From an uncultured Subdoligranulum sp. (GTDB lineage Bacteria; Bacillota; Clostridia; Oscillospirales; Ruminococcaceae), in the NCBI GenBank assembly GCA_945830575.1, contig CALZZE010000001.1, forward strand, positions 62,001 through 126,000: a stretch of DNA of 64,000 nt, read 5' to 3'. The notes under the pieces were generated by a model. It did no database searches. It had not been told where the DNA came from and saw only the letters and a list, made by a program, of their open reading frames with translations. The translations under genes were made by a program, and so were the position numbers. Of the stretch, positions 3,490 through 54,596 are shown piece by piece (the first letter of the stretch is position 1; each line of letters begins with the position of its first letter).

Positions 3490-5264
3490 ACAAAAACTCC
3501 ATGCTCAAAACCCTGTACAAGGAAACAGAGGGCTTTCGTCTGGTGTCCATTCTGACGCCGGTCATGATGATCGGAGAGGTCATCATGGAGATGATCATTC
3601 CCCGTCTGATGTCCTCCATCATTGACGACGGCGTCACCGCAGGCAACCTCGGCCACATCTACCGCATCGGCAGCATCATGGTGGTGGCGGCGGCGGTGGG
3701 TCTGTTCTTCGGCATCATGGGCGGTGTGCTGGGCGCCAAGGCCTCCACCGGCTTTGCCCGCAACCTGCGCCGGTCCATGTTCCGCAACATCCAGACCTTC
3801 AGCTTTGCCAACATCGACAAGTATTCCACCGCGGGCCTTGTCACCCGCATGACCACCGACGTCACCAACCTGCAGAACGCCTACCAGATGATTCTGCGGA
3901 TGTTCGTGCGCGCCCCGGCCAGCATGATCATCGCCATGACGATGGCCTTCCTCATCAACGCCCGTCTGGCCACTGTCTATCTGGTGGCTGTGATGATTCT
4001 GGCCTGCTGCCTCATCTTCATCATGTCCAAGGCCAGCCGGTATTTCTCGGCGGCCTTCAAAAAGTACGATGACCTGAACGAATCCGTGCAGGAGAACGTC
4101 TCCGCCATCCGGGTGGTCAAGGCGTATGTGCGGGAGGATTTTGAGAGCGAGAAGTTCCGCAAGGCCTCCCTCAACGTGCAGAACCTGCTGCTGCGGGCGG
4201 AAAAAATTCTCTCCTTCAACAACCCCCTCATGCAGGGCACCGTCTATACCTGCATCCTGCTTATTTCCTGGCTGGGCGCGCAGATGATCGTCAGCTCGGG
4301 CAACACCGCCTTCACCACCGGCGAGCTGATGAGCATGCTGGCCTACTGCATGAACATCCTCATGAGCCTGATGATGCTGTCCATGGTGTTCATCATGGTG
4401 ACCATGTCCGCCGCCAGCGCCCGCCGCGTGGCCGAGGTGCTGAGCGAGCAGAGCAGCCTCACCAACGGCGAGAACCCCGTCACCGAGGTGAAGGACGGTT
4501 CCGTCAAATTCGACCATGTGTGCTTTTCCTATAAAAAGGACGGCGAACAGGTGCTTACCGATGTCAATCTGGACATTGCCTCCGGCGAAACGGTGGGCAT
4601 CATCGGCGGCACCGGCAGCGCCAAATCCAGTCTGGTGCAGCTGCTGCCCCGCCTGTATGACGTGACCGCCGGCAGTGTGCAGGTGGGCGGTCTGGACGTG
4701 CGCCGCTACGATCTGGAGAGCCTGCGCAACTCCGTGGCCATGGTGCTGCAAAAGAACGAGCTGTTCAGCGGCACCATTGCGGACAACCTGCGCTGGGGCA
4801 ACGAACACGCCACCGAGGAGGAACTGATGGAAGCCTGCCGTCAGGCCTGCGCCGATGAATTCCTTGTCCGGTTCCCGGACGGCCTCAACACCCACATCGA
4901 GCAGGGCGGCACCAACGTGTCCGGCGGCCAGAAACAGCGGCTCTGCATCGCCCGCGCTTTGCTGAAAAAGCCCAAAATTCTGATTCTGGACGACTCTACC
5001 TCCGCGGTGGACACCGCCACCGACGCCAAGATCCGCGCCGCCTTTGCCGAGAAGATCCCCGGCACCACCGTGTTCATTATTGCCCAGCGCATCTCCAGCG
5101 TGGAACACGCCGACCATGTGCTGGTGCTGGATGACGGCAAGGTGGCCGGCTACGGCACCCCGGCGGAACTGCTGGAGAGCAACAGCATCTATCAGGAGGT
5201 TTACCGCAGCCAGACCAAGGGCAGCGGCGACTTTGACGAGAAGGGAGGGGACAGCAATGGCTGA
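3486..5264 (+). CDS. ABC exporter subunit A (degenerate ATP site)
   Basis: A fused six-helix membrane domain and ATPase of 592 residues. Walker A is GGTGSAKSS (about residue 373), signature VSGGQ (about 477), Walker B ILILDDSTSAVD (about 501). The catalytic glutamate after Walker B is Asp, and the switch histidine is Gln (IIAQRISS, about 532). This is the non-hydrolysing half typical of heterodimeric exporters such as BmrCD, LmrCD and TM287/288. Its start overlaps the MarR stop and its end overlaps the next gene by 8 bases. Likely a drug or peptide exporter at the cytoplasmic membrane; substrate cannot be read from sequence. Confidence 0.93.
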   Translation: MNKNSMLKTLYKETEGFRLVSILTPVMMIGEVIMEMIIPRLMSSIIDDGVTAGNLGHIYRIGSIMVVAAAVGLFFGIMGGVLGAKASTGFARNLRRSMFRNIQTFSFANIDKYSTAGLVTRMTTDVTNLQNAYQMILRMFVRAPASMIIAMTMAFLINARLATVYLVAVMILACCLIFIMSKASRYFSAAFKKYDDLNESVQENVSAIRVVKAYVREDFESEKFRKASLNVQNLLLRAEKILSFNNPLMQGTVYTCILLISWLGAQMIVSSGNTAFTTGELMSMLAYCMNILMSLMMLSMVFIMVTMSAASARRVAEVLSEQSSLTNGENPVTEVKDGSVKFDHVCFSYKKDGEQVLTDVNLDIASGETVGIIGGTGSAKSSLVQLLPRLYDVTAGSVQVGGLDVRRYDLESLRNSVAMVLQKNELFSGTIADNLRWGNEHATEEELMEACRQACADEFLVRFPDGLNTHIEQGGTNVSGGQKQRLCIARALLKKPKILILDDSTSAVDTATDAKIRAAFAEKIPGTTVFIIAQRISSVEHADHVLVLDDGKVAGYGTPAELLESNSIYQEVYRSQTKGSGDFDEKGGDSNG

Positions 5265-7185
5265 GCGCGTGAAGGAATTCAAAGGCGGCCCCGGCGGCGG
5301 TCCCCGCGGCCCCCGTCCCAAGATCAAGAACCCCGGCAAGGTGCTGGGACGCATCCTTGGGTACGTCTTAAAATATTATAAGGTACAAAGCGCCATTGTG
5401 GTCTTCTGCATTTTTGCCAGCGTGCTGTGCAATCTGCAGGGCACATGGTTCATGCAGACCCTCATCGACGGTTACATTCTGCCCATGCTCGGCTCCGGCA
5501 GCACGGACTTTTCCGGTCTGCTGTCGGCCATCCTGCGGGTGGCCTGCTTCTACGCGCTGGGCGTGGCGGCGTCCTTCACGCAGGCCCGGCTGATGGCGTA
5601 CATCACGCAGGGCACCTTGAAAAAACTGCGGGACGAGCTGTTCACCCACATGCAGACGCTGCCCATCCGCTACTTTGACAGCCACGCCCACGGCGATATC
5701 ATGTCGGTGTACACCAACGACACCGACACGCTGCGCCAGATGATCTCCCAGTCCATCCCGCAGCTTATCAACAGCTTCATCACCGTTATCAGCACCGCGG
5801 CGCTGATGATCACCCTGTCCTGGCCGCTGGCGCTGGTCACCTTCTTCATGGTGGGCGTCATGCTGATGGTCACCAAGTACCTCACCACCAACTCCAGCAA
5901 GTACTTTGTGGCCCAGCAGGGTGATCTGGGCGCGGTGAACGGCTACATTGAGGAAATGATGACCGGCCAGAAGGTGGTCAAGGTGTTCTGCCACGAGGAG
6001 AAGGCCATCGCGGAATTCAACGAGCTGAACGACCGCCTGTTTGAGAGCGCCGACCGAGCCAACATGTTCTCCAACCTGAACGGCCCCTGCAACGCCCAGC
6101 TGGGCAACCTGTCCTATGTGCTGTGCGCCATGGTGGGCGGCGTGCTGGCGCTGTCCGGCGCCACCGGTCTGACGCTGGGCAAGCTGGCCAGCTTCCTGAC
6201 CTACAACAAGAGCTTCAGCATGCCCATCAACCAGATCTCCATGCAGATCAACTCCATCATCATGGCACTGGCGGGCGGCCAGCGCATCTTTGCGCTGCTG
6301 GACGAGCAGCCGGAGACCAACGAGGGCACCATCACGCTGGTCCATGCCAAGTACACCGCCGACGACGGCGTGACCGAGGCGAACGAGCCCACCGGCACCT
6401 GGGCGTGGAAACAGATGGACGAAAACGGCCAGCCGGTCTACACCGAGCTGAAAGGGGACATCGAGTTCCATGATGTGGACTTCGGCTATGACCCCGAAAA
6501 GATCGTGCTCCATGACATCAATCTGTATGGCCGTCCCGGCCAGAAGATCGCCTTTGTCGGTTCCACCGGCGCGGGCAAGACCACCATCACCAACCTCATC
6601 AACCGGTTCTACGACATCCAGAAGGGCACCATCACCTACGACGGCCACGACATCAAGACCATCGAGAAGAACGCGCTGCGCTCCTCGCTGGGCATCGTTT
6701 TGCAGGACACCCACCTGTTCACCGGCACCGTGATGGAAAACATCCGCTACGGACGCCTGACCGCCACCGATGAGGAGTGCAAAGCCGCGGCACAGCTGGC
6801 CAACGCGGACGGATTCATCCGCCACCTGCCGGACGGCTACAACACCATGCTCACCGGCGACGGCACCAACCTGTCCCAGGGCCAGCGCCAGCTGCTGGCC
6901 ATCGCCCGGGCGGCGGTGGCGGACCCGCCGGTGCTGATTCTGGACGAGGCCACCTCCTCCATCGACACCCGCACAGAAAGCCTTGTGCAGCAGGGCATGG
7001 ACGGCCTGATGTACGGCCGCACCACCTTTGTCATTGCCCACCGCCTGTCCACGGTGCGCAACTCGGACTGCATCATGGTGCTGGAGCAGGGCCGTATTGT
7101 GGAGCGCGGCACCCATGACGAACTGATCGCCCAGAAAGGCCGCTATTATCGCCTGTATACCGGCAATTTTGCGGAAAACAGCTAA
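5257..7185 (+). CDS. ABC exporter subunit B (catalytic ATP site)
   Basis: Partner of the preceding subunit, 642 residues. It begins with a Gly/Pro/Arg-rich tail, then six membrane helices and an ATPase domain with Walker A GSTGAGKTT (about 434), signature LSQGQ (about 538), Walker B LILDEATSS (about 561) and switch histidine IAHRLST (about 592). Unlike subunit A it keeps both the catalytic Glu and His, while its signature is slightly altered (LSQGQ). That is the expected asymmetry of one active and one degenerate composite site. An insertion of about 45 residues before the ATPase strand (LVHAKYTADDGVTEAN...) is longer than usual. The ATGGCTGA overlap with the previous gene indicates translational coupling. 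Confidence 0.93.
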   Translation: MAERVKEFKGGPGGGPRGPRPKIKNPGKVLGRILGYVLKYYKVQSAIVVFCIFASVLCNLQGTWFMQTLIDGYILPMLGSGSTDFSGLLSAILRVACFYALGVAASFTQARLMAYITQGTLKKLRDELFTHMQTLPIRYFDSHAHGDIMSVYTNDTDTLRQMISQSIPQLINSFITVISTAALMITLSWPLALVTFFMVGVMLMVTKYLTTNSSKYFVAQQGDLGAVNGYIEEMMTGQKVVKVFCHEEKAIAEFNELNDRLFESADRANMFSNLNGPCNAQLGNLSYVLCAMVGGVLALSGATGLTLGKLASFLTYNKSFSMPINQISMQINSIIMALAGGQRIFALLDEQPETNEGTITLVHAKYTADDGVTEANEPTGTWAWKQMDENGQPVYTELKGDIEFHDVDFGYDPEKIVLHDINLYGRPGQKIAFVGSTGAGKTTITNLINRFYDIQKGTITYDGHDIKTIEKNALRSSLGIVLQDTHLFTGTVMENIRYGRLTATDEECKAAAQLANADGFIRHLPDGYNTMLTGDGTNLSQGQRQLLAIARAAVADPPVLILDEATSSIDTRTESLVQQGMDGLMYGRTTFVIAHRLSTVRNSDCIMVLEQGRIVERGTHDELIAQKGRYYRLYTGNFAENS

Positions 7186-16710: not shown

Positions 16711-16799
16711 CAAACCGCTGCCGCGCCGGTGACTGTGCAGTTGCCGGCGCGGCCATGCGGTTTTGGCGGATGCCCTGTGCCGGACACAGAGCACCCGCC
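16711..16799 (+). promoter_or_regulatory. Two consecutive intercistronic hairpins
   Basis: Hairpin 1: AAACCGC and CCGCGCCGG pair with CCGGCGCGG and GCGGTTT (16711-16764). Hairpin 2: GGCGG-A-TGC-C-CTGTG pairs with CACAG-A-GCA-C-CCGCC (16764-16799). Neither has a proper U-tract, so they more likely stabilise the binding-protein mRNA or cause partial termination. Confidence 0.65.
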
Positions 16800-16833
16800 A
16801 AGGCCGCATGGAAGGAGAAAAGAGAGGAACCCC

Positions 16834-17784
16834 ATGGCAAAGTACATGCTCAAGCGCATCCTGCATGCGGCCATCACGCTCTGCGTGGTCATCTGCATCG
16901 TGTTTGCGCTGCTCCGCCAGATGCCCATTGAGGGGTATTTCAACAACTTTGACAAAATGACCGAGGCCTCCATTCAGGTCTCGCTGAACAAGATGGGCCT
17001 CAACGACCCGCTGCCGGTGCAGATTCTGCACTATTTCGGCCAGCTGCTCAAGGGGGATCTGGGTGTCTCCAACCGGTACCGGCAGGGCTATCCCATTGTC
17101 AAAATCATCGCCCAGAAGGCGCCCATCTCCATCAAGCTGGGACTCATCAGTCTGGCGGTCTCGCTGGCGGTGGGCCTGCCGCTGGGCATCCTGATGGCCC
17201 GCTCCACCCGCACCCGCTGGAAGCTGTGGGACAAATTCGGCACCGTGTTCATCGTCATCGTGCAGGCGGTGCCCTCGGCGGTGTACCATCTGCTCATCCA
17301 GCTCTACGGCTCGGAAATTCTCGGCGTGTCGATGCTTTTCAATGACCGCAACCCCATGACCTGGGTGCTGCCGGTGTTTTCACTGTCCATCGGAAACATT
17401 GCCTACTACGCCATGTGGCTGCGCCGCTATATGGTGGATGAATCCAACAAGGACTACATCCGTCTGGCCCGGGCCAAGGGCGTGCCCGCGGGTAAGATCA
17501 GCCGCAGCCACGTGTTCCGCAATGCCATCGTGCCGCTGGTGCAGTACATCCCGCAGTCCATCCTGTTCACACTGATGGGCTCGCTGTATGTGGAAAGCCT
17601 GTACTCCATCCCCGGCATGGGCGGCCTGCTGATCCAGGTCATCAAGCTGCAGGACAACACCATGGTGCAGGCGCTGGTGCTCATCTATGCAGCGGTGTCG
17701 GTGCTGGGGCTTTTGTTCGGTGATTTGATGATGGCGCTGGTGGACCCGCGCATCAGCTTTACCGGGAAGGAGGGTGCGCGCTGA
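16834..17784 (+). CDS. Peptide ABC transporter permease (OppB-like)
   Basis: 316 residues, six membrane helices beginning MLKRILHAAITLCVVICIVFALL. The EAA loop that contacts the ATPase is DYIRLARAKGVPAGKI, and the tail SLYSIPGMGGLLIQ is typical of OppB/DppB. Start ATG 16834 has GAGAGGAAC just upstream; in-frame codons further left lie in the hairpin region. Its stop overlaps the next start by one base. Confidence 0.92.
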   Translation: MAKYMLKRILHAAITLCVVICIVFALLRQMPIEGYFNNFDKMTEASIQVSLNKMGLNDPLPVQILHYFGQLLKGDLGVSNRYRQGYPIVKIIAQKAPISIKLGLISLAVSLAVGLPLGILMARSTRTRWKLWDKFGTVFIVIVQAVPSAVYHLLIQLYGSEILGVSMLFNDRNPMTWVLPVFSLSIGNIAYYAMWLRRYMVDESNKDYIRLARAKGVPAGKISRSHVFRNAIVPLVQYIPQSILFTLMGSLYVESLYSIPGMGGLLIQVIKLQDNTMVQALVLIYAAVSVLGLLFGDLMMALVDPRISFTGKEGAR

Positions 17785-45787: not shown

Positions 45788-46909
45788 TCAGTACACGGGC
45801 AAGCGGTTGACGGCGGCCAGCTTTGTTTCGAGGGCGATGTGGGTGTAGGTATCGTCAATTTTTCCGTTGCTGTGGCCCAATATGGAATTGATGACCGGGC
45901 GGCTGACGGCGGGCACCAACTCTTGCAAGCGGGTGGCGCAGGTGTGGCGCTGGCAATAGCTGCCCAGCGGGCGCACGCCGGTGCGCTGGATCAGCTGTGC
46001 CCATTGGGTGTAATATTCGTTTTCGTCGTAGGCCACCAGCCCATAGCGGGCCAGCGGCAACAGATACTCAAAAACAGGGGCGATGCAATCCGCAATGGGA
46101 ATTTGCCGGTCAATGCCTGCCGCTGTCTTGATGCCGCCCACCGCCACCCGGCGGGGCAAATCAATCTTTTGCAGGTCAAGGGCAAACAATTCCCCGGTGC
46201 GCATCCCGGTATAAGCCATCACCAGCGCGTAGCCTGCAATGGGCGTCGGGGCCTTGCGCCAGTCATTCCAAAACGCGGTCATTTCATCCGGGGTGCGGGC
46301 GTCCTGTGTTGTGAGGGGCTTGCTGGGCAATTCCAGCATTTTGATGATGGCAGGCTTTTCCATGGGGATCAACTCTTGAATTGCGGCCAGATCATAAATC
46401 TTTTGCAGCACTGTTTTTGCGTCCCGCTTTGGATAAAAAGCGCCGTCAATGCCGTCAATCAGGTTTTGCAATTCAAAGTATTTCAAGCTGGCGACATCGC
46501 GTTGGTGGATGGAGGCCAGTTTTTTATACGCCGTCAAATAATGGCTGCGCTTGTCCGGGCTGATTTTCAGCCATTTTTGCGTGGCCTGCACGCGGGTAAA
46601 CATTTGGTCAATGGTGTACGCCTTTGCCGCGTCCGGGCTATTTTTCAGCTGCGGCAGGTATTCCAGCGCCGCCGCCTTTGTGGGAAAACCGCCCTTTGCC
46701 CGGCGGGCAATCACCTGACCGCCCCGGATCACGCGCACATAGGCATACCATGAATTGCCCCGTTTGTACACGGTCCCGGAACCGTTGGGGCCGTGGGGCT
46801 TGCGCCGTTTTTCGCCAGAGGTAGAAACCTGTTTTTTGCCACAAAAGCGGCAGTATATGGAATCATCCTCAATGGCGGAGCGGCATTTAATACACGTCAC
46901 CAACAGCAC
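45788..46909 (-). CDS. Tyrosine-recombinase integrase with N-terminal zinc ribbon
   Basis: 373 residues. Residues 1-25 form a zinc ribbon (CIKC and CRFC), then an AP2-like arm-binding part (GSGTVYKRGNSWYAYVRV), a core-binding domain, and a catalytic domain with Arg in YTGMRTGEL, HTCATR (His-x-x-Arg), LGHSNGKIDDTYTH with the final His/Tyr. Mediates integration into and excision from tRNA-Ser(GCU). A zinc ribbon in front of a phage integrase is uncommon. Confidence 0.93.
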   Translation of the reverse strand: MLLVTCIKCRSAIEDDSIYCRFCGKKQVSTSGEKRRKPHGPNGSGTVYKRGNSWYAYVRVIRGGQVIARRAKGGFPTKAAALEYLPQLKNSPDAAKAYTIDQMFTRVQATQKWLKISPDKRSHYLTAYKKLASIHQRDVASLKYFELQNLIDGIDGAFYPKRDAKTVLQKIYDLAAIQELIPMEKPAIIKMLELPSKPLTTQDARTPDEMTAFWNDWRKAPTPIAGYALVMAYTGMRTGELFALDLQKIDLPRRVAVGGIKTAAGIDRQIPIADCIAPVFEYLLPLARYGLVAYDENEYYTQWAQLIQRTGVRPLGSYCQRHTCATRLQELVPAVSRPVINSILGHSNGKIDDTYTHIALETKLAAVNRLPVY

Positions 46910-48140: not shown

Positions 48141-48545
48141 TTATACTGCATTTGTAGTTGAATTACGTTTCTCCCCGCCGGAAGTCTGGTACATGGTGTC
48201 CAGAGTGGAGAGAACAACAGCGCGGTCACGGGGAGTGAGCGCACGCAGCTTTTGAATAATCATCAATTCGTCATCCGTGGGCGGTGCAGAATCGCCTAAT
48301 AACTGCTTAAAATTACAGCAATTTGACGGCGTACTCTCTGAGGAATAACCAAAAGCGCGGTCAACACTAACTCCGTACAGATCACACAAAAGGAAAAGTG
48401 TATTTGCATCTGGTTGGCTTTTCCCGGTTTCCCATGAGGCTAAAGTTTGTTGCGGGCGACCAATTTTAGTAGCGGCCTCGCTTTGAGTAAATCCGGCGGT
48501 TATACGGCAGTTTTTAAGAATTGCCGCGATCTCTGCTTTTGTCAT
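48141..48545 (-). CDS. CI-like XRE-family phage repressor
   Basis: 134 residues. The N-terminal HTH_3 domain (ILKNCRITAGFTQSEAATKIGRPQQTLASWETGKSQPD) is followed by a helical tail with LRALTPRDRAVVLSTLDTMY. It lacks a LexA-type peptidase domain, so induction does not use self-cleavage. ATG 48545 is preferred, with AGG eight bases upstream. Keeps the prophage silent by binding the operators between itself and cro. Confidence 0.85.
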   Translation of the reverse strand: MTKAEIAAILKNCRITAGFTQSEAATKIGRPQQTLASWETGKSQPDANTLFLLCDLYGVSVDRAFGYSSESTPSNCCNFKQLLGDSAPPTDDELMIIQKLRALTPRDRAVVLSTLDTMYQTSGGEKRNSTTNAV

Positions 48546-48562
48546 AAACATCACCTACATAT

Positions 48563-48590
48563 ATTATATAGCTAAAATTCAGAAAATCAA
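48563..48590 (-). promoter_or_regulatory. Repressor promoter (PRM-like)
   Basis: On the minus strand TTGATT (48585-48590), 16-base spacer, TATAAT (48563-48568). Confidence 0.6.
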
Positions 48591-48597
48591 TAGAAAA

Positions 48598-48673
48598 ACT
48601 GAAAAAATCAGTAAAAAACTATTGACAACTGAAATTTTCGGTAGTATTATATAGGCGTACCGAAAATTTCAGT
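48598..48673. promoter_or_regulatory. Three CI/Cro operators
   Basis: ACTGAAAAAATCAGT (48598-48612), ACTGAAATTTTCGGT (48628-48642) and ACCGAAAATTTCAGT (48659-48673). The second and third are exact reverse complements, and each is nearly palindromic (ACyGAAA...TTTCrGT). Centres are 30 and 31 bases apart, three helical turns, suited to cooperative binding. The last two flank the -10 box of the early promoter. Confidence 0.8.
48622..48650 (+). promoter_or_regulatory. Early rightward promoter (PR-like)
   Basis: TTGACA (48622-48627), 17-base spacer, TATTAT (48645-48650); the spacer is operator 2, so repressor binding would block it. Confidence 0.85.
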
Positions 48674-48687
48674 AAAGGAGGGCGCGT

Positions 48688-48920: not shown

Positions 48921-49715
48921 ATGCCAAGAAAAAACAGACAGAAAACCTACAACCCCGTTGGCCCCGTCCAGCTGATAGAAATCCGTGTGGACGGTGACGA
49001 TGTGGCGGCGGCCCTTGCACAGATGCAGGACAAAACGCCGCAAGCCTGCCGGAATGCCATCAACGCCACGGCCAGAAAGGCCCGCACCGTGATGGCAAAC
49101 AAAGCAAGGAAAAAATATCACATTAAGTCAAAGGTCATGCGCAGCGAAAATGATATGCACTTTGAAAAGGCCACCCTCGACAGAATGGAGGCCATGCTGC
49201 GAATCAAACGGGCCATGAATGAACTGATTGACTTTAAGACAAACCCCAACAAATATGTGCACACCGGCCCCGGTGAACGGCATGACGTTTCCGCCGCCGT
49301 AGAAAAGACCGGCATGAAGTCCATGCATAGTGGGCGTTATGGTGCGTTTGTCACAAGATTCAAAAGCGGCCATGTGACCGTTGTACAGCGCAAAGAAAAT
49401 AAGCAATATTCCAACAAAAAGCTGCGCGAATACCAGCGCAAAAGCAAATGGACGGTCAAGGGCGGCGGCGTGCGCGAAAGAAAAAAGGACAGCTGGACAG
49501 ACAGCAGGGGCCGTACCTATCACGGCGACGGCGAGGGTCATTACGATACCCACGCCATTGTCACTTACAAATCACCCAGCGCCGCCGCCATGCTGGGCAA
49601 AAGCTATGGCGAGGTAGAACCAGAGATTGCCCGCCTGCTGCATGACAACATTGCAAAGGCTATTGCCCGCGACATTGCCCGCAACGGCGGCACCAAAAAC
49701 GTGACGGGCAAATAA
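48921..49715 (+). CDS. Minor tail protein Z-like protein in the early region
   Basis: 264 residues, basic. The N-terminal part (AINATARKARTVMANKARKKYHIK) and GAFVTRFKSGHVTVVQRK resemble the lambda gpZ/minor_tail_Z family (compare AFIQQLKNGRWHVMQR in gpZ). The C-terminus (ARLLHDNIAKAIARDIA) also fits the family ending. Tail-completion proteins belong to late operons, yet this one starts 8 bases after cro under the early promoter. It may be a displaced structural gene or a relative recruited for another task. Confidence 0.6.
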   Translation: MPRKNRQKTYNPVGPVQLIEIRVDGDDVAAALAQMQDKTPQACRNAINATARKARTVMANKARKKYHIKSKVMRSENDMHFEKATLDRMEAMLRIKRAMNELIDFKTNPNKYVHTGPGERHDVSAAVEKTGMKSMHSGRYGAFVTRFKSGHVTVVQRKENKQYSNKKLREYQRKSKWTVKGGGVRERKKDSWTDSRGRTYHGDGEGHYDTHAIVTYKSPSAAAMLGKSYGEVEPEIARLLHDNIAKAIARDIARNGGTKNVTGK

Positions 49716-52736: not shown

Positions 52737-53110
52737 ACCTAAAACACAGAGAACTTGCCCTTCACGCGCTGGCCGCCGCCATGGGCATCGCGTCGCTGGC
52801 GCTGGGGTGCTATACCGTGTTGGCGATTTTGTACGCGGTGAATGCACGCGACGCCAAAGACGCCATCACGGCCCTGCTGCTGGCGCTGGGCTGCATTGCC
52901 AGCGCCATGACGGCGGACGATGCCGAAAAAGAGATTGAAAACAGCCGCCGAGAGGCCAACCTGCAAAAGCACGCCAGAATCCGCGCCGCCGCCAACGCGA
53001 TGCGGCACAATGCCAGCGTTGCGGCCACAGCCCGGCGGCACTGCCAAATCATCCGCGAGGCAACCGCCTACGCTGACGAATTGAAAGGATGCAACAATGG
53101 AAAAGATTGA
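52733..53110 (+). CDS. Phage membrane protein, unknown function
   Basis: 125 residues: two probable membrane helices (about 10-35 and 43-58) and a long charged helical C-terminus with many Arg, Ala and His (IENSRREANLQKHARIRAAAN). ATG 52733 overlaps the previous TGA. No family recognised. Confidence 0.5.
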   Translation: MNLKHRELALHALAAAMGIASLALGCYTVLAILYAVNARDAKDAITALLLALGCIASAMTADDAEKEIENSRREANLQKHARIRAAANAMRHNASVAATARRHCQIIREATAYADELKGCNNGKD

Positions 53111-53756
53111 CACAGCCCAGCGCGTTGACGTTGACGTGCAGAAAATCCACACTGACGCACCGGCGGGCAATGCGGCGGTTGCCGAATATCTGAAACTGTA
53201 CAACGCCTATTGGGGCGGATACGATGGCGCCAAAGAACTGCTGGATTTTATGAAGATTCACGGATTTTTTACCGCACCGGCCAGCACGAAATACCACGGC
53301 GCCCGCCCCGGCGGGCTTGTGGCCCACACAAACGCGGTTGCAAGGAACGTGCTGGCGCTGGCGGGCGGCGACTTTCCACAGTTTGCCGATGGGCGCATGG
53401 ATGTGGTTGATGCCGTCCGCGCCGCGTTGATCCACGACATTTGCAAGCTGGATTTGTACCAGACCGGCAGCAAAAACGTGAAAAACCCAGAAACCGGCAA
53501 ATGGGAAACTGTTCCATGCTACATACACAGCGATGGCCGCCTGCTGGGCCACGGCGAGGAAAGCGTGATCATGGCAATGCGGTTTATCCCCAATATGCCG
53601 CCCCGCGTTGCGCTTGCGATCCGATGGCACATGGGCGCATACAAGGACCCGGACAAGATCAGCCAAATGTCAAAGGCGTTTGACAACTGCCCGGAGGCGC
53701 TGGCGGTGCATCTGGCGGACATGATGGCCGCCCACGATACCGAGGCGGACACATGA
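53097..53756 (+). CDS. HD-domain phosphohydrolase
   Basis: 219 residues. The HD motif set is present: GGLVAHTNAV (first His), AALIHDICK (His-Asp) and later conserved residues (GHGEESVIMA, AIRWHMGAY, HLADMMAAHD). HD hydrolases cleave phosphate from nucleotides or cyclic nucleotides. In phages they can shift nucleotide pools or remove signalling nucleotides. Overlaps both neighbours slightly. Confidence 0.8.
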   Translation: MEKIDTAQRVDVDVQKIHTDAPAGNAAVAEYLKLYNAYWGGYDGAKELLDFMKIHGFFTAPASTKYHGARPGGLVAHTNAVARNVLALAGGDFPQFADGRMDVVDAVRAALIHDICKLDLYQTGSKNVKNPETGKWETVPCYIHSDGRLLGHGEESVIMAMRFIPNMPPRVALAIRWHMGAYKDPDKISQMSKAFDNCPEALAVHLADMMAAHDTEADT

Positions 53757-53956
53757 AAGCCCGCCGCCCACAGCCTGCGCCGGGCGCCGCCATAAGCGAC
53801 ACCCCGCCCGGATGCAGGGATTGCCGGTGCATCACCTGCCCGGAAAACTACGCCGGATGCCCGAAACAACCGGCCTGCTATGCAGGGGCCGACAACTGCC
53901 AGCAGAAAGAGGCCGCCAAAAGCTGCCCCATGCGCTGGCCGGATTTTCCAAGATGA
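53753..53956 (+). CDS. Cys-rich small phage protein
   Basis: 67 residues with eight Cys, including CRDCRCITCPENYAGCPKQPAC and a later CQQ...CPMRW. Probably binds zinc. Overlaps the HD hydrolase stop. Last gene before a 457-base structured gap. Confidence 0.55.
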   Translation: MKARRPQPAPGAAISDTPPGCRDCRCITCPENYAGCPKQPACYAGADNCQQKEAAKSCPMRWPDFPR

Positions 53957-54413
53957 TCCCACACCCCGCCACCACGGCGGGGAAATATGAGGCGGTAGGA
54001 ATTGAGCGGTTTTCTGTCCGCCGCTGGCGGTTTGATTCCGCCCCGCCTCACCAACGGCCCGCCCGTGTCATCCCTGCGCGTGGGGGCCACCAGCAAGCCC
54101 ATAATGGCGGTGAGCATCGAGCCGCCATACGGTGCCCCATAGGCGGGAGGAGTGCTGCAACGCTCCGCGGGCCGTGATGCTGCAAAGCGCACCACATGAT
54201 CCTCCGTCAAAAGGCTGCGGCAGGCGCGGTCTGGCCCGCACCGAAAAATCGCCCGGTGTTTTTAGGCTTTTTGCGCCGGGCCTCCTTTGCCCCGCCCGTT
54301 CCGATCCACAGGCGGGCGGGGCAAACATGCAGCGCCACGGTTGGCGCCGGGGAACCCATCGCCCCGGCGGAGGGGCCAGCACCCGCACGCTGCACCAGAG
54401 AAAGGAGCGGCAA
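53957..54413 (+). ncRNA. 457-base non-coding block with dense RNA-like structure
   Basis: No plausible gene on either strand, although neighbouring phage genes overlap. Perfect inverted repeats follow one another: CCCCGCC/GGCGGGG (53964-53982); a tRNA-like element (53989-54053); a 9-bp helix ACGGCCCGC/GCGGGCCGT (54054-54062 with 54167-54175) enclosing nested helices 54081-54085/54135-54139, 54088-54091/54131-54134, 54104-54110/54122-54128 and hairpin 54149-54166; TGCGG/CCGCA (54216-54240); GCCCGG/CCGGGC (54251-54281); a 13-bp hairpin (54286-54325); CGCCGGGG/CCCCGGCG (54345-54369). It ends at a ribosome-binding site. Best read as a large structured phage RNA; class not identified. GC-richness raises the chance of accidental pairing. 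Confidence 0.5.
53989..54053 (+). ncRNA. D-armless tRNA-like element ending in ACCA
   Basis: A perfect 7-bp acceptor stem GAGGCGG/CCGCCTC with 3' ACCA, a perfect 5-bp T-stem GGCGG/CCGCC with 7-base loop TTTGATT, and directly stacked acceptor and T-stem as in tRNA. The anticodon-position stem is GCGG/CCGC with an 8-base loop TTTTCTGT. Only ten bases lie where the D-arm belongs, so the total is 65 bases. Not a normal tRNA: could be a tRNA mimic within the larger RNA or a decayed phage tRNA. Coding identity cannot be set. Confidence 0.5.
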
Positions 54414-54596
54414 ATGGAACAATGGCAGATTGTATGTTATTGCCGCATGAACGGCAAAATTACAAAATCAAAGCCGGACCGGCGGGACGCCCTGCTGCAA
54501 AGGCTGAAACGCGGCGATTTCAAAGAAGTGGAGCCGGGGATTTATGAAAACCCATACTATTTTTGCAAATTAAGGAGGATGCCCAAAGATGTGTAA
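54414..54596 (+). CDS. Small phage protein, unknown function
   Basis: 60 residues, basic, beginning MEQWQIVCYCRMNGKITKSK and ending FCKLRRMPKDV, with Tyr/Asn-rich YENPYYFCK. AAAGGAG lies 9 bases before ATG 54414. Translationally coupled to the next gene (8-base overlap). No family recognised. Confidence 0.55.
   Translation: MEQWQIVCYCRMNGKITKSKPDRRDALLQRLKRGDFKEVEPGIYENPYYFCKLRRMPKDV

Follow-up and report, generated by a model that had tools for sequence, protein, structure and literature searches.

A gap of 457 bases without genes separates two same-strand early genes of a prophage (53957..54413, forward strand), and it very probably encodes a structured RNA carrying a tRNA-like module. We put a probability of about one half on a fuller reading, in which the phage encodes a structured RNA of some 450 nt whose tRNA-like modules would be processed by host enzymes and which would act by tRNA mimicry. 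The RNA is probably a fast-evolving relative of a structured RNA found in Faecalibacterium phages and other gut phages. Throughout, the window denotes the whole 64-kb stretch of DNA that was analysed.

The gap, its fold and its two modules

The original prediction had the limits of the gap right: the stop codon of a 67-aa gene ends at 53956 and the next ATG stands at 54414. Its description of the neighbouring genes as overlapping also holds, in that the two upstream genes share four bases (53753-53756). The locus comprises the following features.

45788-46909, prophage, tyrosine-type integrase
48141-48554, prophage, phage-repressor-like gene, after which the early genes come next
53097..53756, forward strand, upstream gene of a 219-aa HD-domain protein (Pfam HD, 7.5e-06)
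53753..53956, forward strand, upstream gene of a Cys-rich 67-aa protein that matches no database family
53957..54413, forward strand, predicted noncoding structured RNA region
53964..53982, forward strand, leader hairpin of module 1, 7 bp (CCCCGCC/GGCGGGG)
53983..53989, forward strand, AAATATG linker, its G being the first base of the acceptor-like stem
53989..54049, forward strand, tRNA-like module 1, 61 nt
53989-53995/54043-54049, forward strand, acceptor-like stem of module 1, 7 bp (GAGGCGG/CCGCCTC), perfect
54005-54009/54021-54025, forward strand, middle arm of module 1, 5 bp (AGCGG/CCGCT)
54026-54030/54038-54042, forward strand, T-arm of module 1, 5 bp, perfect, loop TTTGATT
54050..54053, forward strand, encoded ACCA (A + CCA) 3′ of module 1
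54054..54175, forward strand, central domain with its closing 9-bp helix ACGGCCCGC/GCGGGCCGT
54104-54110/54122-54128 and 54149-54154/54161-54166 (one G-U pair), forward strand, nested stems of the central domain
54286..54325, forward strand, leader hairpin of module 2, 13 bp
54323..54329, forward strand, AAACATG linker of module 2, its AAA shared with the hairpin
54329..54393, forward strand, closed domain of module 2, 65 nt, 6 bp (GCAGCG/CGCTGC), multi-arm fold predicted
54394..54397, forward strand, encoded ACCA 3′ of module 2
54401..54407, forward strand, ribosome-binding site AAAGGAG of the 60-aa gene, from the sequence
54414..54596, forward strand, downstream gene of 60 aa, start codon after AAAGGAG

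Beyond the window, the same prophage encodes a GpA terminase, a lambda-type portal and tail genes, and the closest terminases in the phage collection, 57.8% identical, are those of the Faecalibacterium phages Toutatis and Lelie. Seven proteins from other reading frames across the gap gave no PHROG match below E 0.01 (best 0.018), and a promoter and terminator scan of the region gave no signal exceeding shuffles. The downstream 60-aa protein found itself alone in 199 genomes and no relative in the viral contigs. A prophage minor tail protein Z domain occurs in two genes, one at 48921-49715 of the window, oddly sited in the early region near the repressor, and one among the tail genes of locus L036 (7719-8483).

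The GC content of the gap is 67%, versus 59% for the window. Folding against shuffled sequence, a check that the original prediction had proposed, favours structure on the forward strand: its minimum energy of -230.5 kcal/mol (z -3.9) is better than that of 100 of 100 shuffles, versus z -1.5 on the reverse strand, where 6 of 100 shuffles do as well. In a local scan of 799 windows of 120 nt, the only unusual one within the region was 54241-54360 (z -4.4). Lower local z-scores are found elsewhere in the 64 kb, and folding energy by itself is therefore weak evidence. The strongest local folds in the window lie at 48561-48680, between the repressor and the first early gene, and at 16721-16840; they occur on both strands, with z of about -7 and -8.6.

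Two of the helices named originally are exact, namely the 13-bp hairpin (54286-54298/54313-54325) and the 9-bp long-range helix (54054-54062/54167-54175), which has nested stems inside. The accompanying count of at least eight perfect helices was loose; six perfect helices of at least 8 bp were listed, some of them mutually exclusive. Within the RNA body, a hairpin CACCG/CGGTG followed by five T (54239-54263) has a terminator-like shape and was not flagged by the terminator scan.

The tRNA-like element that had been placed at 53989-54053 is present exactly there. In this module 1, a single middle arm replaces the D-arm and the anticodon arm. A search of both strands of the window for a shape made of a 7-bp acceptor and a 5-bp T-arm, all Watson-Crick, plus a T-loop returned one match, which is module 1. 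The same shape did not occur in 60 simulated windows for each of two compositions, with or without CCA. After relaxation (G-U pairs allowed, no CCA), the window held 2 matches versus simulated averages of 0.35 and 0.52. Element 1 thus exceeds chance. The combination of a 7-bp acceptor, a 5-bp T-arm with T-loop and a discriminator plus CCA, as in a tRNA, was found in module 1 only. A full cloverleaf with D-arm and anticodon arm is not formed by its 61 nt, and the module is called neither by ARAGORN at default settings nor by Rfam at gathering score.

With lowered thresholds, ARAGORN reports six candidates in 900 bases, and its mitochondrial mode draws exactly module 1 as a "TV-loop mtRNA-Ser"; the Rfam tRNA-Sec model matches weakly (26.3 bits versus a gathering score of 47, E 0.0085 in 901 bases). 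Phages often carry tRNAs. Module 1 could on these grounds be a degraded phage tRNA gene that has lost its D-arm and anticodon-arm region and kept acceptor, T-arm and ACCA, set in otherwise meaningless GC-rich DNA. We consider this unlikely: its 12 stem pairs are all perfect, with no decay, a second module with ACCA stands at the opposite end of the gap, and short tRNA-like elements recur in genome G017 (65 nt) and, with covariation, in the RNA of Faecalibacterium phages.

The second module lacks a canonical T-loop, and one plan recurs at both ends of the region: a GC hairpin, AAAYATG, a closed domain of 61 or 65 nt and ACCA, the G of AYATG being the first base of the closing stem in both modules. 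This plan was turned into a search pattern (a hairpin of 7 bp or longer, then AYATG, a 6-bp closing stem over 50-100 nt, ACCA) that was defined only after both modules had been seen. The only matches on either strand of the 64 kb are those at 53989 and 54329; 60 single strands of 64 kb, simulated at the composition of the region, contain none. In 514 partly overlapping loci (3.47 Mb), the strict pattern gave 10 matches, all of them copies of the window; it requires ACCA, and RNA of the Toutatis type, described below, is thereby excluded by design. Allowing the stem start to shift by up to 2 bases added the window element once more in a shifted reading, the element of G017 (in three overlapping loci) and one match in L465.

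The minimum-energy fold does not adopt the tRNA-like fold, whether the whole region or the element alone is folded. In single-sequence energies that leave out tertiary contacts, enforcing both modules gives -220.4 versus -230.5 kcal/mol, a cost of 10 kcal/mol, and module 1 alone has a competing fold at -30.9 versus -29.9 for the best tRNA-like fold. Together with the GC content and the lower local z-scores of several other stretches of the 64 kb, this fits a gap whose folding follows from its GC richness, or a DNA element, for instance an origin of replication. Such an account is very improbable, being at odds with the excess of folding on the transcribed strand over the other, with the failure of simulations to produce the shape and two-module patterns, the strict one of which hits only window copies in 3.47 Mb, and with the covarying RNA that relatives carry at the corresponding place.

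A covarying RNA in Faecalibacterium phages and relatives

A structured RNA of 466-499 nt stands at the corresponding place in the Faecalibacterium phages Toutatis and Lelie and in related loci. Toutatis has an HD gene (5011-5577), a Cys-rich gene (5586-5759), a gap of 506 nt, a small gene and a methyltransferase, and the order in Lelie is alike, its Cys-rich gene being unannotated. The phage records hold no annotated feature at the position of the RNA in either phage. Searched over three phage loci, a single-sequence model built from the window element (R1) matched best in the Toutatis and Lelie gaps (19.5 bits, E 0.034 over 107 kb) and found no match in the third locus, Epona. The Toutatis gap folds with z -3.25.

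The structured RNA with its tRNA-like 3′ end occurs in Toutatis, Lelie, L231, L339, L340, L396 and G282, the last being a genome of another genus in which the RNA apparently lies in a prophage. In each of these seven, an HD and/or a Cys-rich gene stands 5′ of the RNA: the HD gene in Toutatis, Lelie, L231, L396, L339 and L340, with HD and Cys-rich motifs together upstream in L339 and L340 too. A Cys-rich mini-protein is likewise encoded directly 5′ of the RNA in relatives, the likeness of the window protein to these mini-proteins being judged by eye only. The RNA is also present in L341 (partial) and L406 (a shortened copy), and its 3′ module in G523, a genome of the same genus as G282. Shortened copies that apparently hold the 5′ part of the RNA only, with another gene directly after, lie at about 1800-1890 of L495 (identified by eye) and 2060-2250 of L406 (identified by profile and sequence).

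A profile of the Cys-rich protein (A7) matched 3 viral contigs, 3 of 150 relatives at E<=0.01 (two close to that limit) and 7 of the 31 genomes in the genus of G282; it found no match in the window's own genome. The mini-proteins are encoded at 5586-5759 of L095, 6951-7124 of L231, 4768-4947 of L396 and 4756-4980 of L487 (reverse strand). No Pfam match was found for the window's Cys-rich protein, and no PHROG match for those of L487 and L095.

Covariation, which the original prediction had named as a test, is seen in the Faecalibacterium-phage RNA; the window's own sequence had no close homologue in the collections searched. For six aligned sequences, RNAalifold predicts 105 pairs in 20 helices that span the whole RNA. 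The sample is small, these six sequences are related and the shuffles ignore relatedness; so read, 35 of the 105 pairs are doubly changed (compensatory), versus 18.6 +/- 2.3 in shuffles, and the covariation score is 0.402 versus 0.214 +/- 0.013. Paired cells make up 98.4% of the total and fall to 37-48% once the partner is slid by 1-3 columns. None of 500 shuffles reaches the pairing, double-change or covariation values. One further measure on the same alignment, that of further pair types, does not rise above shuffles.

In the 3′ tRNA-like domain, all cells of the acceptor and T-arm pair (100%) across seven distinct rows, and double changes affect 7 of the 12 pairs; the domain is preceded by a covarying GC hairpin and then GATAT. 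The RNA ends in GCAAGAA, without CCA. Up to the start of the tRNA-like domain, Toutatis and L231 agree at 380 of 396 positions; the middle of the domain agrees at only 16 of 45, and L231 is 13 nt longer there. The contrast between a kept body and a variable middle hints at selection on, or swapping of, whatever the domain binds.

In the middle of the domain, the letters ATCCCCCAT are shared by 5 of the 7 distinct rows of alignment A5. This motif, and the fact that the region runs up to the ribosome-binding site of the 3′ neighbour, could be taken to indicate a leader (riboregulator) through which the downstream gene responds to tRNA or another ligand. A leader is nonetheless improbable: the downstream gene varies between phages, no Rfam leader or T-box matches, and ATCCCCCAT is absent from the window region.

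Probable kinship of the window RNA

The window region occupies the place of the Toutatis-type RNA, between HD/Cys-rich genes and the methyltransferase region. The two RNAs are probably related, at odds somewhat better than even; common descent is likely because of the position, the shared plan and the link through G017 described below, and it is unproven because the body cannot be aligned by profile or covariance model. A profile HMM of the Toutatis-type RNA, run against 300 shuffles, gave its 25 best scores to shuffles, the window being absent from them. The core covariance model (R3) found no match in the window, and the conserved body core was not found there. The body models gave no support to a permuted or swapped order of the modules in the window. 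In alignments that take in the stop codon or the gene-start region, and so overstate the RNA part, window versus Toutatis was equalled by 4 of 200 shuffles globally and by 137 of 200 locally.

A model of the 3′ module (R2) matches 53962-54055 with 21.9 bits (E 0.0015), its sole strong match in the 64 kb. Host tRNAs score 20-42 bits with the same model, and at genome scale the window element fails E 0.1. The match may thus reflect tRNA likeness only. In host genomes, 45 of 50 loci matched by R2 contain an ARAGORN tRNA, and two of the five tRNA-free loci, in G282 and G523, are the true RNA. In some rows of A5, the alignment of the leader hairpin is shifted by a single base (with 74% of its cells paired; A4 and A6 are correct), so that R2 models this hairpin poorly.

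Genome G017, which belongs to the window's own genus, holds a gap of 352 nt (242-593 of L495) that begins directly after a stop codon. Its 5′ start has a GC hairpin and CATATGAG, as in the window, and at its 3′ end another GC hairpin precedes ACACATGA and a tRNA-like element of 65 nt that carries ACCA. Over six loci, the best match of R1 is this element (23.5 bits, E 0.0013 in 34.5 kb). Aligned globally, the G017 gap and the window score 146.5 versus 103.4 for shuffles (sd 11.8; 0 of 200 as good), and locally 47 versus 34.2 (4 of 200). Against Toutatis, G017 is equalled by 3 of 200 shuffles globally and 14 of 200 locally.

A further type of locus is represented by G346. Shuffles equal its alignment with G017 in 17 of 200 cases globally and 2 of 200 locally, and its alignment with the window in 75 and 104 of 200, respectively. 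In the four G346-type loci L487, L494, L501 and L502, a GC-rich gap lies 3′ of a Cys-rich gene. Near its start is a 44-nt tRNA-like element with a 6-bp acceptor, placed 13 nt after the Cys-rich frame in L494 and L501, farther away in L502 and inside the end of the frame in L487, whose 5′ T-loop carries one change. A tRNA-like element of 100-102 nt stands directly before the ribosome-binding site. The locus L493 has no 3′ tRNA-like element. Columns 281-429 of alignment A8, about 149 nt with a repeated hairpin GTGGGCCGAAAGGCCC, are present in two of the four (L487 and L501) and absent from L494 and L502, as if by tandem duplication.

A possible source of the tRNA-like domain is host tRNA-Pro(GGG), suggested by R2 scores that reach 42 bits at most on host tRNA-Pro genes led by a hairpin and GATAT. 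When the domain was aligned plainly with 46 tRNAs, tRNA-Thr came out best (39 for Toutatis, 43 for L339); tRNA-Pro scored 27 and 30, and 42 once the L339 leader was counted in. Within the genus of G282, host tRNA-Pro(GGG) genes (L444-L452, L454-L459 and others) are frequent R2 matches; in L444-L449, GATATC stands before each tRNA-Pro gene and a GC hairpin before most, an arrangement that resembles the leader of the phage module.

Known RNAs, and proposed processing and mimicry

The tRNA-like structures of plant RNA viruses are viral RNA domains that mimic the acceptor/T half of a tRNA. They form the 3′ terminus of the RNA genome of a virus, whereas here the setting is a noncoding RNA in an operon of a DNA phage, and the window RNA, unlike them, has a module at each end. 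In tmRNA, an acceptor and a T-arm without an anticodon arm stand at the end of a structured RNA. This is shared here, with the difference that the acceptor strands pair locally, over 61-102 nt, and not across the RNA; no tmRNA was found by ARAGORN or by Rfam at gathering score. Also close is the system of Toutatis and Lelie, with the same series of HD gene, Cys-rich gene, structured RNA, small gene and methyltransferase and a hairpin-AUAU-tRNA-like module that may correspond to the window's. It differs in that the module with the T-loop is the 3′ one, in the ending GCAAGAA without CCA, and in a body that cannot be aligned to the window's.

The original prediction had looked instead to the large phage RNAs GOLLD and ROOL, often found beside tRNA genes. 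What stood of it is the large structured phage RNA, with a covarying noncoding RNA at the corresponding place in gut phages and two end modules in the window; kinship with GOLLD or ROOL found no support. At gathering score, neither the window nor any of ten loci around relatives had an Rfam match, and neither GOLLD nor ROOL was among the weaker matches in the window region (E<=10) or the Toutatis region (E<=2). ARAGORN calls no tRNA in the window and, in the following 38 kb, two tRNA-Ser about 39 kb away from the region. According to the parts consulted of one study, the structures of GOLLD and ROOL have been solved and their function is unknown, both often lie near tRNA islands, and the GOLLD linker sometimes holds tRNAs (PMC12286853). 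Like the window RNA, both are large structured RNAs of phages and prophages, but a conserved 3′ region is typical of GOLLD, many members of which are longer than 800 nt (PMC12286853). The tRNA-like parts of the window RNA are short end modules and not whole tRNAs. ROOL differs by its other architecture, and no tRNA island was seen here.

A literature search, outside of which lay subscription journals and most preprints, found no description of such an RNA among the papers listed. A term search of the papers describing Toutatis (PMC5883640) and Lelie (PMC11792537) gave no occurrence of tRNA, non-coding or ncRNA in their main text; Lelie is an inducible Faecalibacterium phage that strain L2-61 releases even when untreated (PMC11792537). 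A covarying and visibly tRNA-mimicking RNA family in an inducible phage would have a biochemistry that can be guessed at and tested.

We propose the following course of events. The RNA would be made as part of the early-operon transcript, presumably transcribed as one unit. Host tRNA enzymes such as RNase P would recognise the modules and cut the operon transcript there, freeing the RNA and leaving it with defined, protected ends, while the downstream gene would keep a clean ribosome-binding site. Processing by RNase P has, on the arrangement of the sequence, a chance slightly below even. Encoded ACCA is common to both window modules and the G017 element, and the modules are sited where cuts would separate the RNA from the preceding gene and the following message: module 1 comes after the stop codon, 16 nt separate the end of module 2 from the following start codon, and in relatives the tRNA-like domain is just 5′ of the ribosome-binding site. 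These positions would also suit modules that serve as punctuation only, RNase P and RNase Z cut sites separating messages with a functionless RNA between them. We regard that as quite unlikely; in relatives, conservation of structure extends through the 400 nt that precede the tRNA-like domain, beyond the need of a cut site.

In the favoured course of processing and mimicry, the freed RNA would act as a tRNA mimic, for example by binding a tRNA-handling host protein. We infer mimicry because the acceptor/T-arm half is kept while the middle is changeable. That the RNA serves as a decoy of tRNA-directed host factors is doubtful. Equally speculative is a broader view, in which a new class of RNA, shared by gut phages of this host group, carries tRNA-like modules at one or both ends, with the acceptor and T-arm kept and the middle swapped or hypervariable; the modules would serve host factors that handle tRNA as decoys or handles, anti-phage defences that cut tRNA among them, and the Cys-rich mini-protein would be the partner of the RNA.

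Homologues were sought by several routes. The DNA of the region matched no phage record, and among 199 relatives it matched three genomes, the window's own and two with matches of 27 and 43 bases. The HD protein as query matched in 122 of 199 genomes, one viral contig and 38 phage records, with no match in genome contigs; the matches in the 122 genomes, individually unchecked, are taken to be mostly a chromosomal relative. The HD alignment found 572 viral-contig stretches, and among the best 80 of the 572 the RNA was present in L396 and L406 only. A 17-mer of the T-arm found 14 loci in viral contigs, with tRNA arrays in 4 and no called tRNA in the other 10. In 297 family genomes, R1 matched 21 at E<=0.1, the window's own included; ten of the R1 loci were examined and proved to be five ordinary tRNAs and five other weak matches. 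A 14-base pattern was too loose, returning at least 119 and at least 120 stretches, and among the new ones listed L231 alone proved to be a relative.

Short tRNA-like elements escape standard tRNA calling. Two elements of 106 nt, at 7315-7420 of L349 and 7077-7182 of L350, have a normal-looking D-arm and T-arm, an enlarged middle and no CCA; both lie 2.5-2.8 kb 3′ of the HD gene and are uncalled by ARAGORN. Also uncalled and without CCA are tRNA-like elements at 7659-7767 of L357 (109 nt) and 6372-6459 of L373 (88 nt), each lying a short way 3′ of a gene in its phage contig, the two contigs being related.
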